A stretch of DNA of 64,000 nucleotides, taken from Lachnospiraceae bacterium. Its GTDB lineage: Bacteria; Bacillota; Clostridia; Lachnospirales; Lachnospiraceae. Positions 10,100 to 39,336 of the stretch are shown here, in pieces. The position numbers and the translations under genes are program-made. The stretch covers positions 20,427 to 84,426 of the forward strand of contig JAEEQX010000001.1 of assembly GCA_016285575.1 (NCBI GenBank), written 5' to 3'. The stretch's first letter is position 1. The number at the start of each line of letters is the position of its first letter. The notes under the pieces are model-generated. The model had not been told where the DNA came from. It saw only the letters and a program-made list of their open reading frames with translations, and searched no databases.

Positions 10100-10320
10100 C
10101 AATTACTCGTGGCTTGGAATACTTCCTCGTACAGCGTCCGGCAGGTCTCCCGACTCAGATTCAACATTCATACCGCCTTCCCGTATTACCAGTGGCATAT
10201 TGGTATGAACTCCTCTTCACGGTGACGAGTTCGCACAGGATTCGCACCTGTTTCCCTTTTCACCAAAGCAGATAATTACTATCTCTTTGACACCTTACGC
10301 TTTATTCAACTTGAAAAATA
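10100..10320 (-). promoter_or_regulatory. Cobalamin (adenosylcobalamin) riboswitch
   Basis: Read on the minus strand, the region has the hallmark blocks of the B12 element: an A-rich GGGAA segment followed by GGTGCGAATCC (about 10260-10237), a GCCACTG-containing segment near 10195, and the B12 box GAGTCGGGAGACCTGCC (10156-10140). It lies upstream of the terminator at 10012-10042 and of the chelatase/transport/cobalamin operon, so high cobalamin should switch the whole operon off. Boundaries are approximate because I could not run a covariance model. Confidence 0.93.
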
Positions 10321-10411: not shown

Positions 10412-10481
10412 CGGCACAGGATGGACTTGAACCACCAACTTCGGTCTATGAAACCTATGCCATTCCAGCGGCCACTGCACC
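10412..10481 (-). tRNA. Divergent tRNA-like gene, anticodon CAT (Met or Ile2 class uncertain)
   Basis: On the minus strand 70 nt fold as a cloverleaf: acceptor GGTGCAG (10481-10475) with CTGTGCC (10419-10413), T8, a 4-bp D stem with an unusually short six-base loop (GG kept, canonical A14 replaced by C), an anticodon stem with one A-G mismatch, loop TTCATAG with anticodon CAT at 10450-10448, a four-base variable region, and a T arm GGTGG-TTCAAGT-CCATC matching the TTCRANT consensus. No CCA is encoded. It does not resemble the standard initiator, elongator or Ile2 tRNA I know. It could be a specialised or degenerating tRNA. It lies about 90 bases upstream of the riboswitch on the same strand. 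Confidence 0.7.
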
Positions 10482-11653: not shown

Positions 11654-12421
11654 CTATATCGAGTAAGAAAATCTCTGAAGGTATCTCTCCAAAAACTTCT
11701 GTGTTCTCTCGTTTTTGGGATTGGTAAAAAACTCTGACGGAGTTGCTGTCTCAATTATCTGTCCCTCTGACATAAATGCTACTTTATCAGCAACATCTCT
11801 GGCAAAATCCATCTCGTGAGTAACTATAAGCATGGTAACTTTTTCTTCTGCAACTTTTCTGATAACTCTCTGTACTTCTCCTACAAGTTCGGGATCGAGT
11901 GCGGATGTGGGTTCGTCAAAAAGAATAATCTTAGGATCAAGTGCAAGCGCTCTTGATATCGCAACTCTTTGTTTTTGACCACCTGATAAAGTGGAAGGGT
12001 ACTGATTAGCCTGTTCCAAAAGACCTACTTTATCAAGATATTTTCTGCCTATCTCTATTGCCTCGGACTTGCTCTTTTTCCTGACTGTAATAAGTGCTTC
12101 GGTTACATTTTCAAGAGCGGTCTTATTAGCAAAAAGACCAAAGTTTTGGAACACCATTGCTGTTCTTCTTCTTGCTTCCAACTTAACATGCTTATTAATC
12201 TTACTTGCTGTAAAACTGTAATCATTAATTCTTACATCTCCTGCATCAGGAGTTTCCAAGAGATTAATACATCTTAAAAGTGTGGACTTACCCGAACCAC
12301 TTGAACCAAGAAGCGCTACTGTCTCACCTTCGTTAACGGTTAGATCTACGCCCTTAAGCACGTGATTGTTGCCAAACTTTTTATGTATATTATTCATTTC
12401 TATCATTACATTACTCATCAC
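11654..12421 (-). CDS. Polar amino acid ABC transporter ATPase (GlnQ/TcyC type)
   Basis: A 255-residue nucleotide-binding subunit of an HAAT-type importer. Walker A is GSSGSGKST, the signature is LSGGQKQRVAIS, Walker B is IILFDEPTSALDPE, and the subfamily block VFQNFGLFANKTALENV is present. It overlaps the permease gene by four bases (ATGA-type coupling). With the permease and lipoprotein upstream it makes a complete importer. Because the operon is preceded by a Met/Cys-codon attenuator, cystine, methionine or their conjugates are the best guess for cargo; sequence alone does not separate these from other polar amino acids. Confidence 0.92.
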   Translation of the reverse strand: MMSNVMIEMNNIHKKFGNNHVLKGVDLTVNEGETVALLGSSGSGKSTLLRCINLLETPDAGDVRINDYSFTASKINKHVKLEARRRTAMVFQNFGLFANKTALENVTEALITVRKKSKSEAIEIGRKYLDKVGLLEQANQYPSTLSGGQKQRVAISRALALDPKIILFDEPTSALDPELVGEVQRVIRKVAEEKVTMLIVTHEMDFARDVADKVAFMSEGQIIETATPSEFFTNPKNERTQKFLERYLQRFSYSI

Positions 12422-13119
12422 GCACTCTCCTTGTTTCTCTTCTCAATGAATGCCACTATTCTCTCTAAGATGATACATAATCCCCAATAGATTAATGCTG
12501 CATCTATGTACGCTTCAAAGAATCTTGATGCTCTTCCTGCCTGTATCTTGGCCTGTCCCATAATCTCCGGTACTGCTGCCGTAAAAGCTAACGATGTATC
12601 TTTTAAAAGTCCTATAAAAAAGTTAGCGAATACAGGTAAACTTATCTTTGCTGCCTGAGGTAACACTATTCTTATCATCGCCTGCCACATTGTCATACCG
12701 ACTGATTCTGCCGCTTCCATCTGGCCCTTATCGACAGCCAATATCGACGCTCTGATTGATTCAGTAAGATATGCTCCTGCATTAAGTGAGTAAGCTATAA
12801 ACATAAATACTACTGCAGGTATCCAGGAAATATCGATCTTGGTTCCGAATTTAAAGTTGATTAATTTTATAAGTATGGGGAATGCGTAATAGATTAACAG
12901 AATTTGAACTACAAGCGGTGTGCCTCTGACAAATGATACATAAAGACCTGTAAGCTTATTGAGTACCGGAACTTTATATATCTTAAACAATGCTCCGAAC
13001 AATCCTATTACGATTCCGACTGCGAAACCAACCACTGCGATCATGATTGTAAAAGGTATACCCTTAAGAATCGATGGGATGATTTCTATCATGAATTGAA
13101 AATCAAATATCTTGCCCAT
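12418..13119 (-). CDS. Polar amino acid ABC transporter permease (TcyB/GlnP type)
   Basis: A 233-residue membrane protein with about five hydrophobic helices. It has the HAAT permease start (IPSILKGIPFTIMIAVVGF), the SFVRGTPLVVQILLIYYA block and the cytoplasmic EAA loop AAESVGMTMWQAMIRIVLPQA (about residues 138-158) that docks to the ATPase. It follows the binding-protein gene after a 61-base gap containing a stable hairpin, a common way to keep more binding protein than membrane subunits. The cargo is likely a sulfur amino acid or derivative, inferred from the operon. Confidence 0.92.
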   Translation of the reverse strand: MGKIFDFQFMIEIIPSILKGIPFTIMIAVVGFAVGIVIGLFGALFKIYKVPVLNKLTGLYVSFVRGTPLVVQILLIYYAFPILIKLINFKFGTKIDISWIPAVVFMFIAYSLNAGAYLTESIRASILAVDKGQMEAAESVGMTMWQAMIRIVLPQAAKISLPVFANFFIGLLKDTSLAFTAAVPEIMGQAKIQAGRASRFFEAYIDAALIYWGLCIILERIVAFIEKRNKESA

Positions 13120-13137
13120 TTACTGCCTCTTTCTTAA

Positions 13138-13173
13138 AACCCGCATTGCCTCAAATGAGAAGCAACGCGGGTT
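13138..13173 (-). terminator. Intercistronic hairpin (partial terminator or mRNA stabiliser)
   Basis: A stem of AACCCGC with GCGGGTT (13173-13167 with 13144-13138), extended by four inner pairs and followed by a short T run on the minus strand, lies between the binding-protein and permease genes. It probably ends a fraction of transcripts or protects the upstream message, giving excess binding protein. Confidence 0.6.
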
Positions 13174-13180
13174 AATCGTC

Positions 13181-14098
13181 TTATTCGGGACGAACGTCTG
13201 TGTAATCAGCTTCGAACCATTCCTTGGAAAGCTCAGCAAGTGCACCGCTTTCTTTAAGCTTAGCTAATGCTGCATCTACTCTAGCGTGGATTTCCTTGCC
13301 CTGCTCATCCTGTGCGAAGATGAAGTGAACGGGTACCTGATCTACGGGCTTACCAACGGGCTTAACCTTAAGTCCCTGAACTTCTGCCTTGCTTACTGCT
13401 ACTGCAGGATCGTTAAGTGTTGCTGCGATTCTTCCGTTGTCAATGTCCTGTAAGATTGTTGTTACGTCTTCGTTGTAGTACTGAATCTTTAACTGATTGT
13501 TAGCGTCGTGCTCTTCATTCCAAATCTCTGCTTCTTCGTTGTGGTTATCACCTACTGTAAGGCCTAAAACTCCGCCTGATGCAACGAGATCTTCGAATGA
13601 TGTTACTGTATCGTTGTCACTTCTTACGATGAGCTGGTTGGTAGCTACGAAGTATGTATTCTCTGTAAGATAGTATTTTGCCTGTCTTTCCTCGTTACTT
13701 GCAATCTGGTTAGCAAGCATCTGGAACTTACCTGAATCAAGTCCGGGGAAGAGTGATTCCCATGCTCCTGATTCGAATTCGAAGTGAAGTGAAGGATCAA
13801 CTTCTTCAATCTTTCTAACTACTTCGATATCGTATCCTGTAAGATAATCATTCTCATCATAGTAGCTGAAAGGTGCGTATGTACCCATTGTTCCAACATG
13901 AACTGTGATTAATTCTTTCTCAGGTGCTACTGCTTCTCCCTCATCTGTTGTAGCACCATTGTCTGCTGCATTAGCTTCAACTTTATTAACCTCTGTATCA
14001 GTATTAATAGGTGCTGCTGCGCCATTGCTCACGCAACCTGCTAAACCTGCTGTTACAAGTGAAAGTGCCAAAATGTTAGTAAATATTCTCTTTTTCAT
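13181..14098 (-). CDS. Amino acid ABC transporter substrate-binding lipoprotein
   Basis: A 305-residue precursor with a lipoprotein signal (lipobox LAGC at about residues 19-22), an Ala/Asn/Glu linker, and a family 3 solute-binding domain. The N-lobe begins VGTMGTYAPFSYYDEND and contains TGYDIEVVRKI (about residues 90-100), the ligand-contacting segment of polar amino acid binders; the hinge and C-lobe follow (GGVLGLTVGDNHNEE and NDPAVAVS). Start ATG 14098 has GAGG upstream. It feeds the permease and ATPase downstream. The hallmarks fit cystine or other polar amino acid binders such as TcyA, but specificity is not readable. Confidence 0.9.
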   Translation of the reverse strand: MKKRIFTNILALSLVTAGLAGCVSNGAAAPINTDTEVNKVEANAADNGATTDEGEAVAPEKELITVHVGTMGTYAPFSYYDENDYLTGYDIEVVRKIEEVDPSLHFEFESGAWESLFPGLDSGKFQMLANQIASNEERQAKYYLTENTYFVATNQLIVRSDNDTVTSFEDLVASGGVLGLTVGDNHNEEAEIWNEEHDANNQLKIQYYNEDVTTILQDIDNGRIAATLNDPAVAVSKAEVQGLKVKPVGKPVDQVPVHFIFAQDEQGKEIHARVDAALAKLKESGALAELSKEWFEADYTDVRPE

Positions 14099-14148: not shown

Positions 14149-14955
14149 CTATCTTGTAAGTAACCCTGCATCCAGTACAAACTGATTGCCTGTCATGTAT
14201 CTTGCATCTTCGCTTGCTATGTATTTTACAGCAGCTACAATGTCAGATGTTTCAACCCAAGGAACGGGAAGCAGATTTCCTGCGCTTCTCTCCGCTATCT
14301 CAATGGGCGTTGTGCCTTCAAGTTCTGCCAATCCGTCATTCATGGGAGTGTTAACTCCTGTCGGATGAAGCGATACAACTCTGATACCGTAAGGTGCGAG
14401 TTCTATTGCCTGTGACTTGGTAAGACCAACCAATCCATGCTTGGATGCTGAATAATGACTCATTCTGTTCATACCCCTAAGACCTGCAATTGATGAATTA
14501 TAAATGATCACTCCTTTCTTTTTTTCAATGAGGTGCGGAATAACATATTTGGATACCAACCATCCTCCTCTTAAGTTAATCTCTATCATTGCATCCCATT
14601 GTTCTTCTGTTAATTCCCAGGAATTACCGTATGCGGCAATTCCGGCATTGCTGAATAATATGTCGATTCCGCCGAATTCCTTAACACCTCGCTCAACTGC
14701 TTCCTTGACGTCTTCTCCTTTTCTTACATCGCCGGCGTAAATGACAATCTTGCCTCCGGCTTTTTCTACATCATCTTTGAGTTTCTCAAGATCCTCATTG
14801 GATGATCTGTTGTATGCCGGATATGCTATTTTTTCTCCGAGGTCAAAAGCTATGATGTTAGCTCCTTCCTCTGCAAATCCAAGTGCTACGGCTCTTCCCT
14901 GGCCCTTGGCTGCTCCTGTAATAAATACTGTTTTATTCTGAAATTCTTTGCTCAT
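14149..14955 (-). CDS. Short-chain dehydrogenase/reductase (carveol-dehydrogenase / mycofactocin-SDR-like)
   Basis: A 268-residue classical SDR read from ATG 14955, which has GGAG upstream; the open frame extends 25 codons further but without a plausible start. The cofactor motif is TGAAKGQGR, followed by a NAG motif (SNAGIA) and the catalytic Ser/Tyr/Lys in NSSIAGLRG and HYSASKHG. The GQGRA stretch together with HPTGVNTPMND and LLPVPWVETSDI is characteristic of the carveol-dehydrogenase/mycofactocin-coupled subfamily, whose members hold their nicotinamide cofactor tightly. No mycofactocin genes are visible here. It starts four bases after the Fe-S enzyme stop. The substrate is unknown. Confidence 0.88.
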   Translation of the reverse strand: MSKEFQNKTVFITGAAKGQGRAVALGFAEEGANIIAFDLGEKIAYPAYNRSSNEDLEKLKDDVEKAGGKIVIYAGDVRKGEDVKEAVERGVKEFGGIDILFSNAGIAAYGNSWELTEEQWDAMIEINLRGGWLVSKYVIPHLIEKKKGVIIYNSSIAGLRGMNRMSHYSASKHGLVGLTKSQAIELAPYGIRVVSLHPTGVNTPMNDGLAELEGTTPIEIAERSAGNLLPVPWVETSDIVAAVKYIASEDARYMTGNQFVLDAGLLTR

Positions 14956-14959
14956 TGTT

Positions 14960-16321
14960 TTATCTCCTATCTTTATTGTTAAACCATTCTGTAAATCTCT
15001 TTTTACATGCAAGCGCACATGGTGCTTCACATATACCGCCCTCAGATGTGCACTTATATTTTTCAGGCATCTCGCGGCCCATCCTATCCATCACTTCAAC
15101 TGCTTCATCAAAAGGTATCACTGCGCTTCTTCCTGATAATGCCAAGTCTGCAAATGTGATTGCCATGATTGAACTTGTAACGAATCTAGATAGACAAGGT
15201 TGATTGTCTCCTCCGGGGATTGGATCGCATGCCCATCCAAGTGAACTTTGAAGTGCCAGGGAAGCTGCATTCTCAATCTCCTTAGCGGTACCTCCTTCGA
15301 GGTAAGTAATCGCTGCTGCCGTCATCGCCTGACATACTCCGCATTCTCCGGCGCATCCTGTAATCTCTCCTGTAGGATCTGACTTCGAATATGCTATAAT
15401 TCCGACACCTGCTGCCACGAATAAACTCTCAACTATTTTGTCTTCATCTATATGCTTATCCTCTTCAAAAGCTCTTATTGTCGAGTATAGGAATCCGCCT
15501 CCTGTTCCCATTGGTCCAGGAACTAATTTCACACCTTTGGTTAATGCCTGTACATTGAATACATATTTAAGTATTCTTGTATTTATACCGCTTTGTATTG
15601 ATCTTCCTTCTTCAATGTACTTATCCCATTTTCTAAAGTGATATCCGCTATACGGCGTCTCTATTATTCCAACGGGATTAACGTGTGGTGCCTCTGTTTC
15701 CAACTCCATCAATCGTCTTCGTTCTCTCATCGTATCGAGTACTTTTTTCTTACTATTTTTTGAAAGAAGTACTTCGTATCTTAATGCTGTCTCATAGAGA
15801 TTTTCATTAGCTCTTTCGCTTTCATTTATCCAAGTATTAAAGCTATCGAAAAGCTGTATCTTTTCTTCTTCATTTTTCTTGGTAAAAGCTTTATCGTTAA
15901 TGCTTACTATCTCTATTCTTCCGCCACCGATTGAGTTGCCTTCAAGCGAATACTTTTTATCATCTTCGTCAGTTAGTATGAATCTGACTGCATTGGGATG
16001 TTTGTTTTCTAATGTGACATATTCGAATTCGTAATCGATTCCTTCACTTTTTAGAATCTCTTTTATCTCGAATAATCTCTCATCATCGCACTTAAGTCCG
16101 TACGCTCCGGCAAGCATTCCGATATCTTCATTCATATGACCGAATGTTCCGGCAAATGAGCCGTTAGCATCAAGTTGAATCTGTATCTTTTTTAATTTCC
16201 CTTTTACCAGTTTTCTTGCTTCATTGCCTATCTTACAAGGACCCGCTGTATGAGAACTTGATCCCGGTTGCATTACAGGACCGAATACGTCTTCGAATAT
16301 GTCAGGTATTAACTTACTCAT
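14960..16321 (-). CDS. L-serine dehydratase-like Fe-S enzyme (fused beta-alpha form)
   Basis: A 453-residue protein related to the [4Fe-4S] L-serine ammonia-lyase family. The N-terminal part (about residues 1-170) matches the beta/ACT-like region with GPSSSHTAG-type start (PGSSSHTAGPCKIG). The C-terminal alpha domain has CAGECGVCQAMTAAA, LGWACDPIPGG and QPCLSRF, giving the cysteines expected to bind the cluster. Additional cysteines (CGVC, and CTSEGGICEAPCALAC at the tail) are unlike ordinary serine dehydratases. In this operon it may eliminate from a cysteine- or homoserine-derived substrate rather than serine; that is inference. It overlaps the upstream gene by four bases. Confidence 0.82.
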   Translation of the reverse strand: MSKLIPDIFEDVFGPVMQPGSSSHTAGPCKIGNEARKLVKGKLKKIQIQLDANGSFAGTFGHMNEDIGMLAGAYGLKCDDERLFEIKEILKSEGIDYEFEYVTLENKHPNAVRFILTDEDDKKYSLEGNSIGGGRIEIVSINDKAFTKKNEEEKIQLFDSFNTWINESERANENLYETALRYEVLLSKNSKKKVLDTMRERRRLMELETEAPHVNPVGIIETPYSGYHFRKWDKYIEEGRSIQSGINTRILKYVFNVQALTKGVKLVPGPMGTGGGFLYSTIRAFEEDKHIDEDKIVESLFVAAGVGIIAYSKSDPTGEITGCAGECGVCQAMTAAAITYLEGGTAKEIENAASLALQSSLGWACDPIPGGDNQPCLSRFVTSSIMAITFADLALSGRSAVIPFDEAVEVMDRMGREMPEKYKCTSEGGICEAPCALACKKRFTEWFNNKDRR

Positions 16322-16845
16322 TTCCTCTTCGTGTAAGGAACGAGTTCGTCATCAAGTGTTACCTGAAGTGTCTTATTGATAAGGTTGGTTGCTATCATGA
16401 TTGTCGCGAATGCTGTGATTGCAACTATCTGTTCCTCACTCCACTTGGACTTAAGTCTGTCGAAGATTTCTGCGGGTACGTTATTAGCATCTGTTACAAT
16501 TGCTTTGCCGTAATCAATAAGTATCTTTTCTTCTTCGGTAAATTCAAAATGTTCAAAATCGATTCCTGCATCATCAAGTATCTTTTGGAAAAAGATGCTA
16601 CATACGAGACAATCATTAGTTGTTGATATCGCGTATGAAAAGAAGTTGACCGCTCTCTCTCCAAGGAAGGATTCAATCTCTGCTTCAAGTGGAAACCACT
16701 CCATTAATGCGTGGAAAGCAGGTATTGAATGTATAAGTGTTTTCTTCATGTTGGTGAGTGGTCCGTGTACGCTTACCCACTCATCAATTACTTTTTTGTG
16801 TTTTTCATCTGCCTGTTCGTATTCAAGCTGTGATATATATGCCAT
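16318..16845 (-). CDS. Carboxymuconolactone decarboxylase / AhpD-like family protein
   Basis: A 175-residue, mostly helical protein with the family's redox-type motif CLVCSIFF (about residues 79-86), equivalent to the CxxC of AhpD and related alkylhydroperoxidase-like proteins, followed by EEKILIDYGKAIV and IVAITAFATIMIATNLIN. Such proteins act as thiol peroxidases or reductants, or as small decarboxylases. Here it lies between the sulfhydrylase and the Fe-S enzyme genes in a sulfur operon, so a thiol-redox helper role is plausible. The exact reaction cannot be assigned. Confidence 0.82.
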   Translation of the reverse strand: MAYISQLEYEQADEKHKKVIDEWVSVHGPLTNMKKTLIHSIPAFHALMEWFPLEAEIESFLGERAVNFFSYAISTTNDCLVCSIFFQKILDDAGIDFEHFEFTEEEKILIDYGKAIVTDANNVPAEIFDRLKSKWSEEQIVAITAFATIMIATNLINKTLQVTLDDELVPYTKRK

Positions 16846-16857
16846 TGTTTTTTCCTC

Positions 16858-18162
16858 CTATTTGTATGCTTTTTCAAAAGCCTGTTTTAAATCTGCTATT
16901 AAGTCGTCCGCATCTTCAAGACCGATTGAAAGTCTTATTAGATTCTTGGGTATATCTGCGAGTTCATGGTACTTAGGATCAAGCTCGGTATGTGTATTCT
17001 CAACTGGGTTAGTAATGAGTGATCTTACGTCTCCGATATTTACGTGATAAGAGAAATTGTTAAGTGCCTTGATGAACTTTCCTTCCTCTTCTCTCGTTCC
17101 CTTGAAGCCGAATGATATGAGTGCTCCGGGCCCCTTCTTGAAATCTCTGTCTGCCAATGCTTTATAAGGAGAGTTCTTGGCATATGGATGTCTAACCCAT
17201 TCAACTTTTTCATGGTTCTCTAAAAACTCAACTATCTTTTTGGTTGTCTCAATCTTCTTATCAAGTCTTACTGATAATGTTGAGAGACCCTGGAGTACCA
17301 GGTATGACTCAAACGATCCGAGTGCCCCGCCAAGAAATTCGGTAAAGAACACTTTTAGGGAGGCAATAAGCGGAGCACCTGGCCAGAATTCAATAGGACT
17401 TCTGGGGTTATCGTCGAGATCTCTCATCTTCCATTCCTTCTCATAGAATTGAGGGAATTTCTTTTCGTCGTAGTGGAAATCTCCTTTCTCAACTACGAGT
17501 CCGGCTATCACATTACCATGTCCGTTAATCTCTTTTGTTGCTGAATAAATCGTTATGTCTGCACCGTGTTCAAATGGCTTGTAAAGATACGGTGTTGCGA
17601 CTGTGTTATCTACGATTACCGGAACGTTATGTTTATGTGCTATCTTTGCTATCGCATCTATATCGTAGAGCTCTGCATTGGGATTGCTGATTGATTCGAG
17701 ATACACTGCCTTGGTATTCTCATCTATCAATGCTTCGTATGCTTCAGGATTGTTTCTGTCCTCTACGAACTTGGTTGTTATTCCATACTTGGGAAGGAAT
17801 TTGATGAGGGCTAACATTGCTGCTCCATATAATGATGAAGAAGATACTATGTTGCCACCGCCCTGTCCTAAGAGAAGTAAGGTGTAGGTCTGTGCAGCCA
17901 TTCCTGATGAAAGAGCAACTGCAGCTTTACCACCTTCAAGCTTGGCGAATCTCTCTTCGAGAATTGCACCTGTAGGATTACCTACTCTTGAGTAAATTCC
18001 ACCGCCTTCAGCACCTGTCCATAATCTTCTTGTTCTATCGATATCTACCAGATCGAATGAAGCTGTCTGATAGATGGGAGGGTTAACCGAATGAAAGTGA
18101 TCGTTGGAATCATATCCGGCTCTGATTGCATCTGTTGAAAATCCGTTATTTATGTTTGACAT
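16858..18162 (-). CDS. O-acetylhomoserine sulfhydrylase-family PLP enzyme
   Basis: A 434-residue enzyme of the Cys/Met metabolism PLP family (fold type I). Members replace or eliminate the gamma or beta substituent of homoserine or cysteine derivatives. Seen here: YSRVGNPTGAILEERFAKLEGG near residue 57, SSGMAAQ, the VDNTVATPYLYKP segment and the PLP lysine in YSATKEINGHG (about residue 208). The length and the internal insert containing SPIEFWPGAPLIASLKVFF fit the O-acetylhomoserine aminocarboxypropyltransferase branch rather than MetB/MetC (about 380-400 residues). First gene behind the leader-peptide attenuator, which suggests induction when Met/Cys-tRNA charging falls. Confidence 0.9.
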   Translation of the reverse strand: MSNINNGFSTDAIRAGYDSNDHFHSVNPPIYQTASFDLVDIDRTRRLWTGAEGGGIYSRVGNPTGAILEERFAKLEGGKAAVALSSGMAAQTYTLLLLGQGGGNIVSSSSLYGAAMLALIKFLPKYGITTKFVEDRNNPEAYEALIDENTKAVYLESISNPNAELYDIDAIAKIAHKHNVPVIVDNTVATPYLYKPFEHGADITIYSATKEINGHGNVIAGLVVEKGDFHYDEKKFPQFYEKEWKMRDLDDNPRSPIEFWPGAPLIASLKVFFTEFLGGALGSFESYLVLQGLSTLSVRLDKKIETTKKIVEFLENHEKVEWVRHPYAKNSPYKALADRDFKKGPGALISFGFKGTREEEGKFIKALNNFSYHVNIGDVRSLITNPVENTHTELDPKYHELADIPKNLIRLSIGLEDADDLIADLKQAFEKAYK

Positions 18163-18220
18163 TTTTGTTCTCCTTATCTAAATCTTTTCTTCTATTTTCT
18201 TTTCTTTATTAACTGTTTTG

Positions 18221-18289
18221 TTGTTATTTCTTTTTAGATTCTTTATTAAATGTTTCATTGTTATTTCTTTTTGATTCTTTATTTAATTG
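18221..18289 (-). repeat. Imperfect tandem repeat in the long 5' untranslated region
   Basis: Two copies of an approximately 32-base T-rich (plus strand) unit, 18221-18252 and 18258-18289, differ at a few positions. On the mRNA they give purine-rich AAGAAAT and AAAGAATC segments between the attenuator and the sulfhydrylase start. This may be neutral slippage or an unstructured ribosome-loading region. Confidence 0.7.
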
Positions 18290-18358
18290 ATTGATTCTTT
18301 TTATGCCTCATATGCTTTTATTTAGGTTGTTGTTACAAAACTTGGCTTGTGCGAGGCA

Positions 18359-18393
18359 TAAAAAAATCCCGGAAGTTTTTGTCCTTCCGGGAT
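18359..18393 (-). terminator. Attenuator terminator in front of the sulfur operon
   Basis: A perfect 10-bp GC-rich stem (18393-18384 with 18375-18366), an eight-base loop and a run of seven T on the minus strand. It lies downstream of the Met/Cys leader peptide and about 200 bases before the sulfhydrylase gene, so transcription must read through it to express the operon. Confidence 0.93.
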
Positions 18394-18471
18394 GAATCTA
18401 ATCAAAACCTGTCCGTTAACATCGGTGCATGACAAAGTTGCCATACACCCAAGGTTTTTCATCTACCCGGG
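18387..18471 (-). promoter_or_regulatory. Antiterminator helix competing with the terminator
   Basis: The 5' arm (18471-18452: CCCGGG, two unpaired bases, GATGAAAAACCT) can pair with the 3' arm (18410-18387: AGGTTTT, seven unpaired bases, TTCATCCCGG). The 3' arm includes the left half of the terminator stem, so both cannot form at once. Between the arms is an internal hairpin (GGTGTATG with CATGCACC, about 18446-18424). A ribosome stalled on the Met/Cys codons (18505-18485) leaves the 5' arm free; a ribosome at the leader stop codon (18418-18416) would cover part of the 3' arm. Confidence 0.8.
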
Positions 18472-18535
18472 AGAACAGCTTACTACACATACACATACAG
18501 CACATATTAAATTGTGAAACTGTTAATGTTTTCAT
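18416..18535 (-). CDS. Met/Cys-rich leader peptide of a transcription attenuator
   Basis: A 39-residue open reading frame with ATG at 18535 and TAA at 18416. AAGGA lies ten bases upstream of the ATG, and a consensus promoter would start the RNA about 28 bases before it. Codons 11-17 read Met-Cys-Cys-Met-Cys-Met-Cys, an extreme clustering of the two sulfur amino acids. The peptide has no signal or domain, and it overlaps the 5' arm of the antiterminator. By analogy with trp, his and cysteine-type leader peptides it should sense charged tRNA-Cys and/or tRNA-Met and control read-through into the sulfhydrylase operon. Product function beyond translation is not expected. Confidence 0.85.
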   Translation of the reverse strand: MKTLTVSQFNMCCMCMCSKLFSRVDEKPWVYGNFVMHRC

Positions 18536-18569
18536 GACTTTCGTTTCCTTTATCATTGATTATGGACTT

Positions 18570-18598
18570 ATTATAATCATACCAACCTACTATGTCAA
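18570..18598 (-). promoter_or_regulatory. Consensus sigma-A promoter for the attenuated sulfur operon
   Basis: Perfect -35 TTGACA (18598-18593) and perfect -10 TATAAT (18575-18570) with a 17-base spacer on the minus strand. Initiation is predicted near 18563. With such a strong promoter, control would fall mainly on the downstream attenuator. Confidence 0.9.
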
Positions 18599-18620
18599 TA
18601 GGTATTTATAAAATTTTTTA

Positions 18621-18652
18621 AAAAAATAAAAAAGCCCTTATTTAGGGCTTTT
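18621..18652 (-). terminator. Intrinsic terminator after the GH114-like lipoprotein gene
   Basis: A 9-bp stem AAAAGCCCT with AGGGCTTTT (18652-18644 with 18638-18630), a five-base loop and an A/T-rich tail ending in T residues on the minus strand, ten bases past the stop of the upstream gene. Confidence 0.88.
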
Positions 18653-18662
18653 CTCCGGTTAA

Positions 18663-19667
18663 TCAATTAAGTTCTATCGATCCTGATACATAATATGCGA
18701 AGTTTTTATTCTTACAATAACTGTCTATATCTGCTATTACGGATGAATCTTTTGTATATTCCAGAAGATAGATATCGGCTCCTAAGTTGGAATATCTCTC
18801 CAGATATTCAGTGAAGTATGCTTTGTCTTCAGGATCACTGACGCCGTGATTTTCATCTTCCCAGTCAATCTTGGTAAATACCGATTCCTGATTAATTCCT
18901 GTTATTACATCACTCCATACACCCTTCTTGGAACAGTATGCATCAATGAAGGTATCTCCTCCGTTCATTATCACCGCCTTATTATATCCCTTAAGGCCTT
19001 TCATAATGTTCGCAACACCTGAGAGCATCGAATCATTCTGATACATGTAATATACATCGCAGTTATCTACGAAGAAGCCATCCACTCCTTTTTCTATTAA
19101 AGCAGGCGCCAGTGTATAGAGCACATAGTTTTGCCATCTTTCATTTGATACATCAATCCATCTCTCTTCTTCCCAATTCTCATAATCTGACAGAGTGATA
19201 TCAACAAATTCATTATAATATGGTCTGAATGTTTCAAGAGAGCCTATATTAAGATAACTATATACCTTGTGTCCGCCTTTCTTATATTCAGTTATCTGTT
19301 CCTTGGTAAAATACTGAGCATCAATCACTATTTCATCATAATCGGCAAACCTGCTTAAGTCTCCTTCATATGATAAGAACACTCCGTACTTACTGTTGTA
19401 GCCGGCAGTACTTTTTATACTTTCGATTTTCTCTTCGTCTTCTTCAGTATCTGATGTGATTATTCCTTCTTCAGAATCAGACTTAGTTTGTTCCTTATCG
19501 ACCGCCTGTTCTTCTTCAGTCTCCACAATAATATTTTCTTCTACGTCATCGTCAATCAAAACTATATCTTTTTTATTACAAGCAAACAGTCCTATTGAAA
19601 ACAATAGGACCATTGCAATCGACAGTATTTTATTATTTCTTATTACATTATTCATCCCCAATATCAT
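18663..19667 (-). CDS. GH114-like (endo-alpha-1,4-polygalactosaminidase family) lipoprotein
   Basis: About 334 residues from ATG 19667 (GAGGA 11 bases upstream); a TTG six codons earlier and an ATG four codons later are alternatives. A lipoprotein signal ends at LFAC, followed by an acidic linker. From about residue 85 the domain (YGVFLSYEGDLSRFADYDEIVIDAQYF, SYLNIGSLE, KGVDGFFVDNCDVY, NGGDTF) matches the TM1410/glycoside hydrolase 114 TIM-barrel family, including the FVDN segment with a likely catalytic aspartate. Members cut galactosaminogalactan-like or related polymers. It is anchored outside the cell and flanked by its own terminator. The substrate is not known. Confidence 0.85.
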   Translation of the reverse strand: MILGMNNVIRNNKILSIAMVLLFSIGLFACNKKDIVLIDDDVEENIIVETEEEQAVDKEQTKSDSEEGIITSDTEEDEEKIESIKSTAGYNSKYGVFLSYEGDLSRFADYDEIVIDAQYFTKEQITEYKKGGHKVYSYLNIGSLETFRPYYNEFVDITLSDYENWEEERWIDVSNERWQNYVLYTLAPALIEKGVDGFFVDNCDVYYMYQNDSMLSGVANIMKGLKGYNKAVIMNGGDTFIDAYCSKKGVWSDVITGINQESVFTKIDWEDENHGVSDPEDKAYFTEYLERYSNLGADIYLLEYTKDSSVIADIDSYCKNKNFAYYVSGSIELN

Positions 19668-39189: not shown

Positions 39190-39206
39190 TACAAACGAAT
39201 TAAATA

Positions 39207-39320
39207 TTCTTCGGGGTCGGGTGTAATTCCCTACCGGCGGTGACAGTCCGCGAACCACAAGTGTGGCCGAATCGGTGCAATTCCGATACCGACAGTAAAG
39301 TCTGGATGATAGAAGAAACA
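39207..39320 (+). promoter_or_regulatory. FMN riboswitch (RFN element)
   Basis: The region has all RFN blocks in order: TTCGGGGTCGGGTG, AATTCCCTACCGGCGGTGACAG, TCCGCGAAC, and the closing GACAGTAAAGTCTGGATG. It stands between a consensus promoter and a terminator and controls the downstream RibU gene. FMN binding should stop transcription. Confidence 0.97.
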
Positions 39321-39336
39321 CTATTAAGTATTTTAT

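Follow-up and report, generated by a model that had tools for sequence, protein, structure and literature searches.

A putative ribosome-mediated attenuator with cysteine and methionine control codons upstream of sulfur operons in Lachnospiraceae and further Clostridia

A leader region in the analysed 64,000-nucleotide stretch of Lachnospiraceae DNA (contig JAEEQX010000001.1; referred to below as the window) very probably attenuates transcription in a ribosome-mediated manner, in response to the level of charged cysteinyl-tRNA and perhaps of methionyl-tRNA; the promoter in front of it is probably subject to additional repression by an Rrf2/CymR-like protein. An earlier note on this DNA had proposed a translated Met/Cys leader that controls termination ahead of a sulfur operon, and this proposal is borne out by the conservation of the reading frame, the Cys/Met codons, the covarying helices, and the gene context. 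The leader-plus-switch layout is found again at further sulfur loci, both in this genome and in its relatives, which argues that the window element is not a product of chance.

Architecture of the Leader Region

Unless indicated otherwise, all features of the locus described here lie on the minus strand. The promoter (18570..18598) had been called a perfect consensus, and the promoter scan indeed gave a match at 12 of 12 positions, with the -35 box TTGACA (18598-18593) and the -10 box TATAAT (18575-18570) separated by a spacer of 17 bp. The leader frame of 39 codons plus stop (18416..18535) was also found as described, starting with ATG at 18535, ending with the stop codon at 18418-18416 and encoding the peptide MKTLTVSQFNMCCMCMCSKLFSRVDEKPWVYGNFVMHRC; it is supported by the sequence and by frame conservation in relatives, and a second in-frame ATG at 18556 provides a longer version of the same ORF. 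AAGGAA at 18550-18545 (18545..18550), read from the sequence, is the likely ribosome binding site, in agreement with the earlier assignment. Leader codons 11–17 (18485..18505) form the previously noted control run Met-Cys-Cys-Met-Cys-Met-Cys, at a place where Cys and Met are enriched in the 79 elements compared below, and this run sits 22 codons ahead of the leader stop. It contains no CGA codon; a CGA (18424-18422) precedes the last Cys codon of the leader.

Scanning recovered the reported intrinsic terminator (18359..18393) with its stem of 10 perfect pairs (18393-18366), a loop of 8 nt, and a T-run, and the pairs of this stem covary in relatives. The claimed antiterminator, which shares an arm with the terminator, was obtained by folding the transcript before R4, the partner of R3 in the terminated state, is made. 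In this fold 18470-18452 pairs with 18410-18387 in three runs (18470-18466 with 18391-18387, 18462-18458 with 18396-18392, and 18457-18452 with 18410-18405). The 5′ arm (R2; 18452..18470) lies four codons past the last control Cys codon and covaries in relatives with the 3′ arm (R3; 18387..18410), which according to the fold and the terminator scan overlaps the 5′ arm of the terminator. Two features go beyond the earlier note: a hairpin enclosed by the antiterminator (Pm; 18424..18449), predicted by folding and with two-sided changes in 7 of 8 pairs among 103 aligned copies, and the palindromic candidate operator CCTATTGACATAGTAGG (18586..18602), which overlaps the -35 box and recurs in the genus and upstream of most of the elements compared below. 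The AT-rich stretch between the terminator and the first gene (18221-18284) contains two imperfect direct repeats, 18284-18258 and 18250-18221.

The stated absence of S-box and T-box motifs agrees with the lack of any Rfam match at gathering scores at the locus. A permissive Rfam scan of 18200-18700 returned only matches far below gathering scores (NsiR1, His_leader, the trpB motif, and others), which were discarded. Identification as a T-box or as a SAM riboswitch (S-box) was likewise rejected, as neither covariance model, nor that of any other Rfam family, reached its gathering score at this locus or at 18 related loci. Elsewhere in the window are an FMN riboswitch (39203-39321, plus strand), a cobalamin riboswitch (10123-10312, minus strand), and a tRNA (10412-10481, minus strand).

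Genes Downstream of the Leader

The first controlled gene (16858..18162) encodes an O-acetylhomoserine sulfhydrylase-like PLP enzyme of Cys/Met metabolism (PF01053, E = 4.3e-115; TIGR01326, E = 1.4e-127, below the curated cut-off). Further downstream are genes for a small protein with a weak YciW-like match (16318..16845; NF053654, E = 4.2e-6, far below the cut-off), for a serine dehydratase-like protein with alpha and beta domains (14960..16321; PF03313, PF03315), which is possibly a cysteine- or serine-degrading enzyme, for a short-chain dehydrogenase (14149..15030; PF00106), and for the binding protein, permease, and ATPase of a cystine-type ABC transporter (11654..14098), for which NCBIfam gives components of cystine transporters as the best matches, though at scores under the equivalog cut-offs. 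The small protein, the dehydrogenase, and the transporter are presumed members of the operon. Because the best NCBIfam matches fall below curated cut-offs, the substrates assigned to the operon are putative.

Copies in the Same Genome and Genus

A DNA search of the same genome showed that the promoter element is common to three other places. Two of these have the layout of the window locus, contain both a terminator and an antiterminator, and match the covariance model: MKQINTILKNMRCCRMLLSRAYNVVGFSSIRCRSHEC precedes a cystathionine synthase/lyase-type enzyme (a Cys/Met PLP enzyme), and MRRFENILSMCMCMCRMLLSRASRLTGCMA precedes a MetQ-type/cystine-type binding protein. At the third place, a Cys-containing leader without a terminator-like site is followed by genes for a PLP enzyme, cysteine synthase, and an Rrf2 regulator.

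On the genus level the covariance model detected the element in 20 of 31 genomes, among them 10 of the 13 of good quality, and each of these 20 carries one to four matches. The other 11 of the 31, three good-quality genomes among them, gave no match. Anchoring on the operator yielded 34 distinct Cys/Met-rich leader peptides, some of them close variants of one another; this set excludes the family-level sites L047, L049, and L050 and counts only sites with a qualifying ORF. S-boxes occur in 29/31 and T-boxes in 31/31 genomes of the genus, so that the earlier remark on the missing S-box and T-box holds for the locus but not for the genus. The single S-box in the same genome lies away from the window locus, in front of a gene that we take, by recognition rather than by HMM, to be metK.

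Distribution across Clostridia and Beyond

A search of Lachnospiraceae for homologous leaders with covarying stems, as proposed in the earlier note, returned the element in 34 of 249 sampled genera (35 of 250 family genomes with model R1, own genus included). With model R2 it was detected in 10 of the 291 genomes of the class set and in 2 of the 299 of the phylum set, counts that include the own genome; all sets of more than 40 genomes were searched with stricter filters, at the expense of weak matches.

In named contigs, the pattern TGYCGAATGNNNNNCTCCCGGGC gave at least 120 matches in at least 119 stretches. The peptide motif C-R-M-x-x-S-R-A follows from this pattern and is therefore no independent test. 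Among the 120 pattern matches listed, the R3 complement was present in 114, though R3 is absent from the pattern, and R3 together with a T-run in 105; the strict operator motif was found in 83, a looser promoter/operator regular expression in 101, and at least two Cys/Met in the three residues before C-R-M in 85. Four of the matches listed appear chance-like (L213, L219, L246, and L308), and two more (L231 and L275) have normal leaders without a recognised R3. The 80 named loci listed include Lachnospiraceae, Ruminococcaceae, Oscillospiraceae, Saccharofermentans (Oscillospiraceae), Christensenella, and Anaerovibrio (Negativicutes), a genus in which A. lipolyticus is a cultured carrier. A first downstream gene was called for 111 of the matches listed, and by BLAST against the genus clusters 67 of these genes encode Cys/Met PLP enzymes, 31 transporter binding proteins, one cysteine synthase, and five members of cluster c6, taken as an ABC permease from its operon position rather than from an HMM; seven were unassigned. 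The matches thus delineate a family of predicted elements that spans the genus, the Lachnospiraceae, and further Clostridia and Negativicutes.

Leader Frame, Control Codons, and CGA

Seventy-nine non-redundant elements with a terminator were compared (16 from the genus, 12 found by the model in the family, and 51 from the 80 named loci listed); none of the chance-like pattern loci is in this set. The frame that runs through the control codons, with ATG and a Shine-Dalgarno-like site, is open through R2 in 75 of the 79, compared with 3 and 2 for the other two frames, and on these grounds the leader ORF is predicted to be translated. Within the ten codons up to and including the control codon, Cys makes up 23.5% and Met 13.7%, compared with 9.0% and 4.0% of later codons (together 37 vs. 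13%). With position 0 fixed by the search regular expression, position -1 is Cys in 62/79, and Cys is therefore regarded as the consistent signal; position -2 is Met in 47 and Cys in 21. Of the two sulfur amino acids that the earlier note took to be sensed, Cys is the likelier signal, as its codons stand consistently beside the switch; sensing of Met, which is common at position -2, is unproven. A role of Met is possible, above all for the run in the window.

The arginine codons directly before Met or Cys are mostly CGA (48 of 58) in the 34 operator-anchored leaders, as opposed to 4 of 51 elsewhere in these leaders. CGA accounts for 70 of 1862 Arg codons in 169 neighbouring genes and for 1 of 40 that precede Met/Cys there. 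In the context Cys-Arg-Met-x-x-Ser, CGA is used at 17/17 genus, 24/25 family, and 11/12 class/phylum loci, the latter two counts being biased because the models contain CGA and the sets include own-genome copies. According to passages of a report on a bacterial his-leader assay, CGA is decoded slowly (PMC4046918), and we infer that CGA before Met/Cys serves as a brake. A broader hypothesis is put forward only tentatively and is considered rather doubtful: a lineage-wide sulfur module of Clostridia and Negativicutes, in which the rare, slow CGA before Met/Cys would be a built-in brake that makes the response to charged Cys/Met-tRNA sharper, while the promoter would carry an Rrf2 operator. CGA-Met and CGA-Cys also in terminator-less leaders would imply a second, non-terminator output.

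The leader peptides of 23 of the 79 elements end in RC, RCC, or RCR (e.g., L195, L203, L222, and L240). In these four examples the stop lies 26–27 nt before R3, and the leader end may thus hold a further checkpoint for Cys.

RNA Structure

In alignment A1 of 28 elements (22 of them non-redundant), the antiterminator and its hairpin together comprise 21 pairs, 15 of which show two-sided changes; 0 of 500 shuffles reached the observed values on each of five measures. Two-sided changes affect 6 of 9 terminator pairs, a count attained by 37 of 500 shuffles, with 0 of 500 on the other four measures. In alignment A2 of 103 model-aligned matches the number for the antiterminator and its hairpin rises to 19 of 21 pairs (0 of 500 shuffles on each measure), although this alignment was fitted to the model and hence leans towards the structure. 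Folds and covariation agree that terminator and antiterminator are mutually exclusive.

In minimum free energy folds of the stalled-ribosome state before R4 is made, R2:R3 formed in 78 of 79 elements compared with 88 of 395 controls, in which the middle and the R3 arm had been shuffled by single letters; the one element under the R2:R3 threshold of 6 was the window copy, with 5. When the full stretch was folded in the same way with a ribosome before R2, the antiterminator prevailed in 57 of the 79 and the terminator in 18, and the remaining 4 formed neither; without a ribosome, the antiterminator prevailed in 37 and the terminator in 42. When the ribosome footprint was masked in partition function calculations, the antiterminator was favoured in 62/79 with the footprint at the control codons and in 33/79 with the footprint at the stop; moving the footprint from the former to the latter shifted 51/79 as expected and 15/79 the opposite way. 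With no ribosome the same calculations favoured the antiterminator in 53/79, a behaviour unlike the trp paradigm.

The window copy itself deviates from these trends. Its terminator reaches 0.95–0.97 at equilibrium in all three modelled states, so that equilibrium folding fails as a proof for this copy, and its switch would therefore have to be kinetic, with R2:R3 forming before R4 is transcribed. This modelled dominance of the terminator is the main weakness of the attenuator reading at the locus. The R2:R3 duplex of the window copy (-12.8 kcal/mol) is the weakest of 28 computed and ranks 19th of 22 against swapped partners; the copy on contig C147 of the same genome is one of those with a stronger antiterminator. 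Across the 22 elements of this swapped-partner test, the own R2:R3 duplexes had a mean of -22.9 compared with -18.4 kcal/mol, but the own partner ranked first in only 6 of 22, because many elements share CCCGGGC.

Upstream sequestration of R2, which would disarm the antiterminator, was found in 68/79 elements and in 256/395 controls, a modest excess, and the CGAATG stretch was paired in 49/79 and 154/395, respectively. A trp-like protector hairpin, in which CGAATG or R2 would pair with a downstream arm, was not adopted as the whole cause of the conserved CGAATG, since the pairing excess is modest and terminator-less leaders also keep CGA.

Promoter Operator and Rrf2 Regulators

With at most one mismatch, the palindrome CCTATTGACAHARTAGG was found at 63 sites in 23 of the 31 genus genomes, compared with 7 sites for the reversed pattern. 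The commonest letters around the -35 box are AACCTATTGACATAGTAGGTAAAT, with the inverted repeat ACCTA...TAGGT. Of the 79 elements, 57 are preceded by an operator-like motif, CCTATT(G/T)AC...(A/G)TA(G/T)G. A promoter picker assigned a promoter to 75/79, with the right arm absent at the expected place in 23 of these 75, some of which stem from a wrong TTTAC; 57/79 is therefore taken as the operator figure.

Rrf2-family genes are located within some of the leader-bearing operons, and the two Rrf2 proteins examined match the CymR and IscR models, both below the equivalog cut-offs. An Rrf2/CymR-like repressor probably acts at the palindrome as a second layer of control. The palindrome at the -35 box also precedes nifS-iscU operons without a Cys leader (L081:340, L087:6087, L094:345, L106:369, L126:350, L123:395, L099:348, and L112:395), and the operator regulon therefore appears wider than the attenuator family. 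Directly behind another operator palindrome is a gene (L108:377-1792) with a LanM-like lanthionine-synthetase match below the cut-off.

Other Leader Classes

Some Cys leaders of the genus have no terminator. In three scanned terminator-less leaders (e.g., MAKDYIIDFVKNILLIRMCSRCRCCF), no terminator-like site was detected between operator and gene; one such site at a scanned locus was upstream of the operator. A pattern for terminator-less leaders gave no match in 250 family genomes compared with two for the reversed pattern, but it also misses the own-genome copy and is too strict to show distribution. A second leader class, with peptides ending in ...LLIRMCSRCRCC and close variants, precedes a Cys/Met PLP enzyme at L091, L097, L098, L103, L114, L117, L120, and L044. 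Its members have CGA before Met/Cys, and cysteine synthase and Rrf2 genes come next in 7/8 (L103 is cut off); the three scanned leaders described above, which lack a terminator between operator and gene, represent this class. A third class has peptides of the type ...MCMCMMCC...CLP, or variants thereof, together with a terminator-like hairpin, and occurs at L081, L087, L094, L106, L115, L123, and L126. Several of these leaders are followed by a second small Cys leader (...STRMC...), which suggests tandem sensors.

Proposed Mechanism and Alternative Explanations

Sequence comparison supports the frame, the control codons, the competing helices, the operator motif, and the gene context; that the ribosome stalls, in which direction the operon responds, that a repressor takes part, and which amino acid is sensed are what we infer. 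When cysteine is short, the leading ribosome would stall at the Cys/Met codons with its front edge ending just ahead of R2, which would thus be free to pair with R3; with R2:R3 formed, no terminator would arise and the operon would be read through. When cysteine is ample, the ribosome would reach the stop codon, cover the enclosed hairpin, and come up to R3, upon which R3 would pair with R4 and transcription would end.

Among the alternatives, the strongest is that promoter control by an Rrf2/CymR-like repressor dominates and that the leader contributes little or attenuates constitutively. The palindromic operator at most sites, its presence at nifS-iscU operons without a Cys leader, and the terminator preference of the window copy in every modelled state are in its favour, but the leaders and covarying switches kept across genera and classes would be needless for a passive terminator, and this explanation is considered improbable. 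Slightly less credit is given to an arrest of the ribosome by a nascent peptide or metal effect (e.g., Cu(I) binding or a thiol reaction) instead of uncharged tRNA, with the leader translated and the switch real. Cys/Met clusters could bind soft metals, and the motif C-R-M-x-x-S-R-A recurs in leaders found via the operator, where this motif was not used for the search. However, the control runs vary (MCC, WCC, CCCC, MCMCMC, and WCMCM) and do not conform to a single binding motif, the S-R-A part is accounted for by the R2 RNA arm, and the genes downstream serve sulfur amino acid synthesis and transport, with no metal exporter among the families examined.

A tRNA- or metabolite-binding riboswitch, such as a diverged T-box or SAM element with an incidental ORF, is very improbable: although both RNA classes occur in the genus, the missing Rfam matches at the window locus and the 18 related loci, the preservation of one frame and not the others, and the Cys/Met enrichment of the control codons argue against it. 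Least probable of all is a fortuitous Cys/Met-rich ORF beside an ordinary terminator; the 4 of 120 pattern matches listed that look fortuitous indicate that such cases arise, but for the element as such this explanation is already contradicted by recurrence across genomes with covariation. Attenuation by a ribosome that responds to cysteine supply is thus the preferred reading. If correct, the element, which occurs at up to four loci in a genome of the genus and in numerous genera from rumen and gut, would constitute a separate regulatory layer by which synthesis and transport are linked to the supply of cysteine in anaerobic communities. The sequence model can be used for the annotation of such operons, and the rule of CGA before Met/Cys renders a role of codon context in attenuation directly testable.

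Comparison with Known Systems

Sulfur amino acid genes of Firmicutes are usually regarded as targets of S-box and T-box RNAs and CymR-type repressors, and ribosome-mediated attenuators of the trp/his type are known from Proteobacteria. No earlier account of the element was recognised in searches of an open-licence library; subscription papers and preprints are outside this scope, and an account may still be in print. The predicted element resembles the trp/his type in its leader ORF with control codons, in the arm common to antiterminator and terminator, and in the use of ribosome position as the switch. It differs in its Cys/Met codons, its occurrence in Clostridia and Negativicutes with up to four model matches per genus genome, the hairpin within the antiterminator, the shared operator motif, and the weak support for a trp-like protector hairpin. 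Published passages describe his attenuators of Proteobacteria (PMC9413887) and also His leader attenuators of Firmicutes (PMC2965389, PMC9413887). The latter share a regular leader peptide with terminator and antiterminator, but respond to histidine and are given for few species (17 genomes; PMC9413887), and in these passages no operator shared across loci is described. For the ilv-leu operon of Staphylococcus aureus, mutant evidence for an attenuator with a Leu-rich peptide, layered on the CodY repressor, is presented in the passages concerned (PMC5794164); this is likewise a Firmicute attenuator on top of a repressor, here putatively Rrf2/CymR-like, but concerns leucine, a single operon, and another sequence. 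The earlier note had considered such an attenuator unusual for Firmicutes, which has to be qualified in view of the His and Leu leaders described in these sources.

Runs of Cys codons upstream of cys genes are also reported for actinobacterial uORFs (PMC1262725, PMC4633059, PMC13236596). There the Cys run is close to the end of the ORF, and a conserved terminator hairpin was not found (PMC1262725); Cys leaders lacking terminators are likewise described in PMC4633059. Here, in contrast, the control run is set at a clear distance ahead of the stop (by 22 codons in the window), and terminator and antiterminator covary; assignment of the window leader to the actinobacterial class was rejected because of its terminator and the position of its control run. 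The uORFC-8-2 upstream of cysS in Rhodobacterales has two tandem Cys codons and a terminator, but is alphaproteobacterial, precedes only cysS, and folds into two prominent stems, the first of which contains the Cys codons (PMC8632094). To the Rrf2 regulons of CymR and IscR the system is linked by the Rrf2 genes in some operons and the operator common with nifS-iscU; the two Rrf2 proteins examined score below the CymR/IscR equivalog cut-offs. Taken together, we read the element as a new, widespread variant of ribosome-mediated attenuation.
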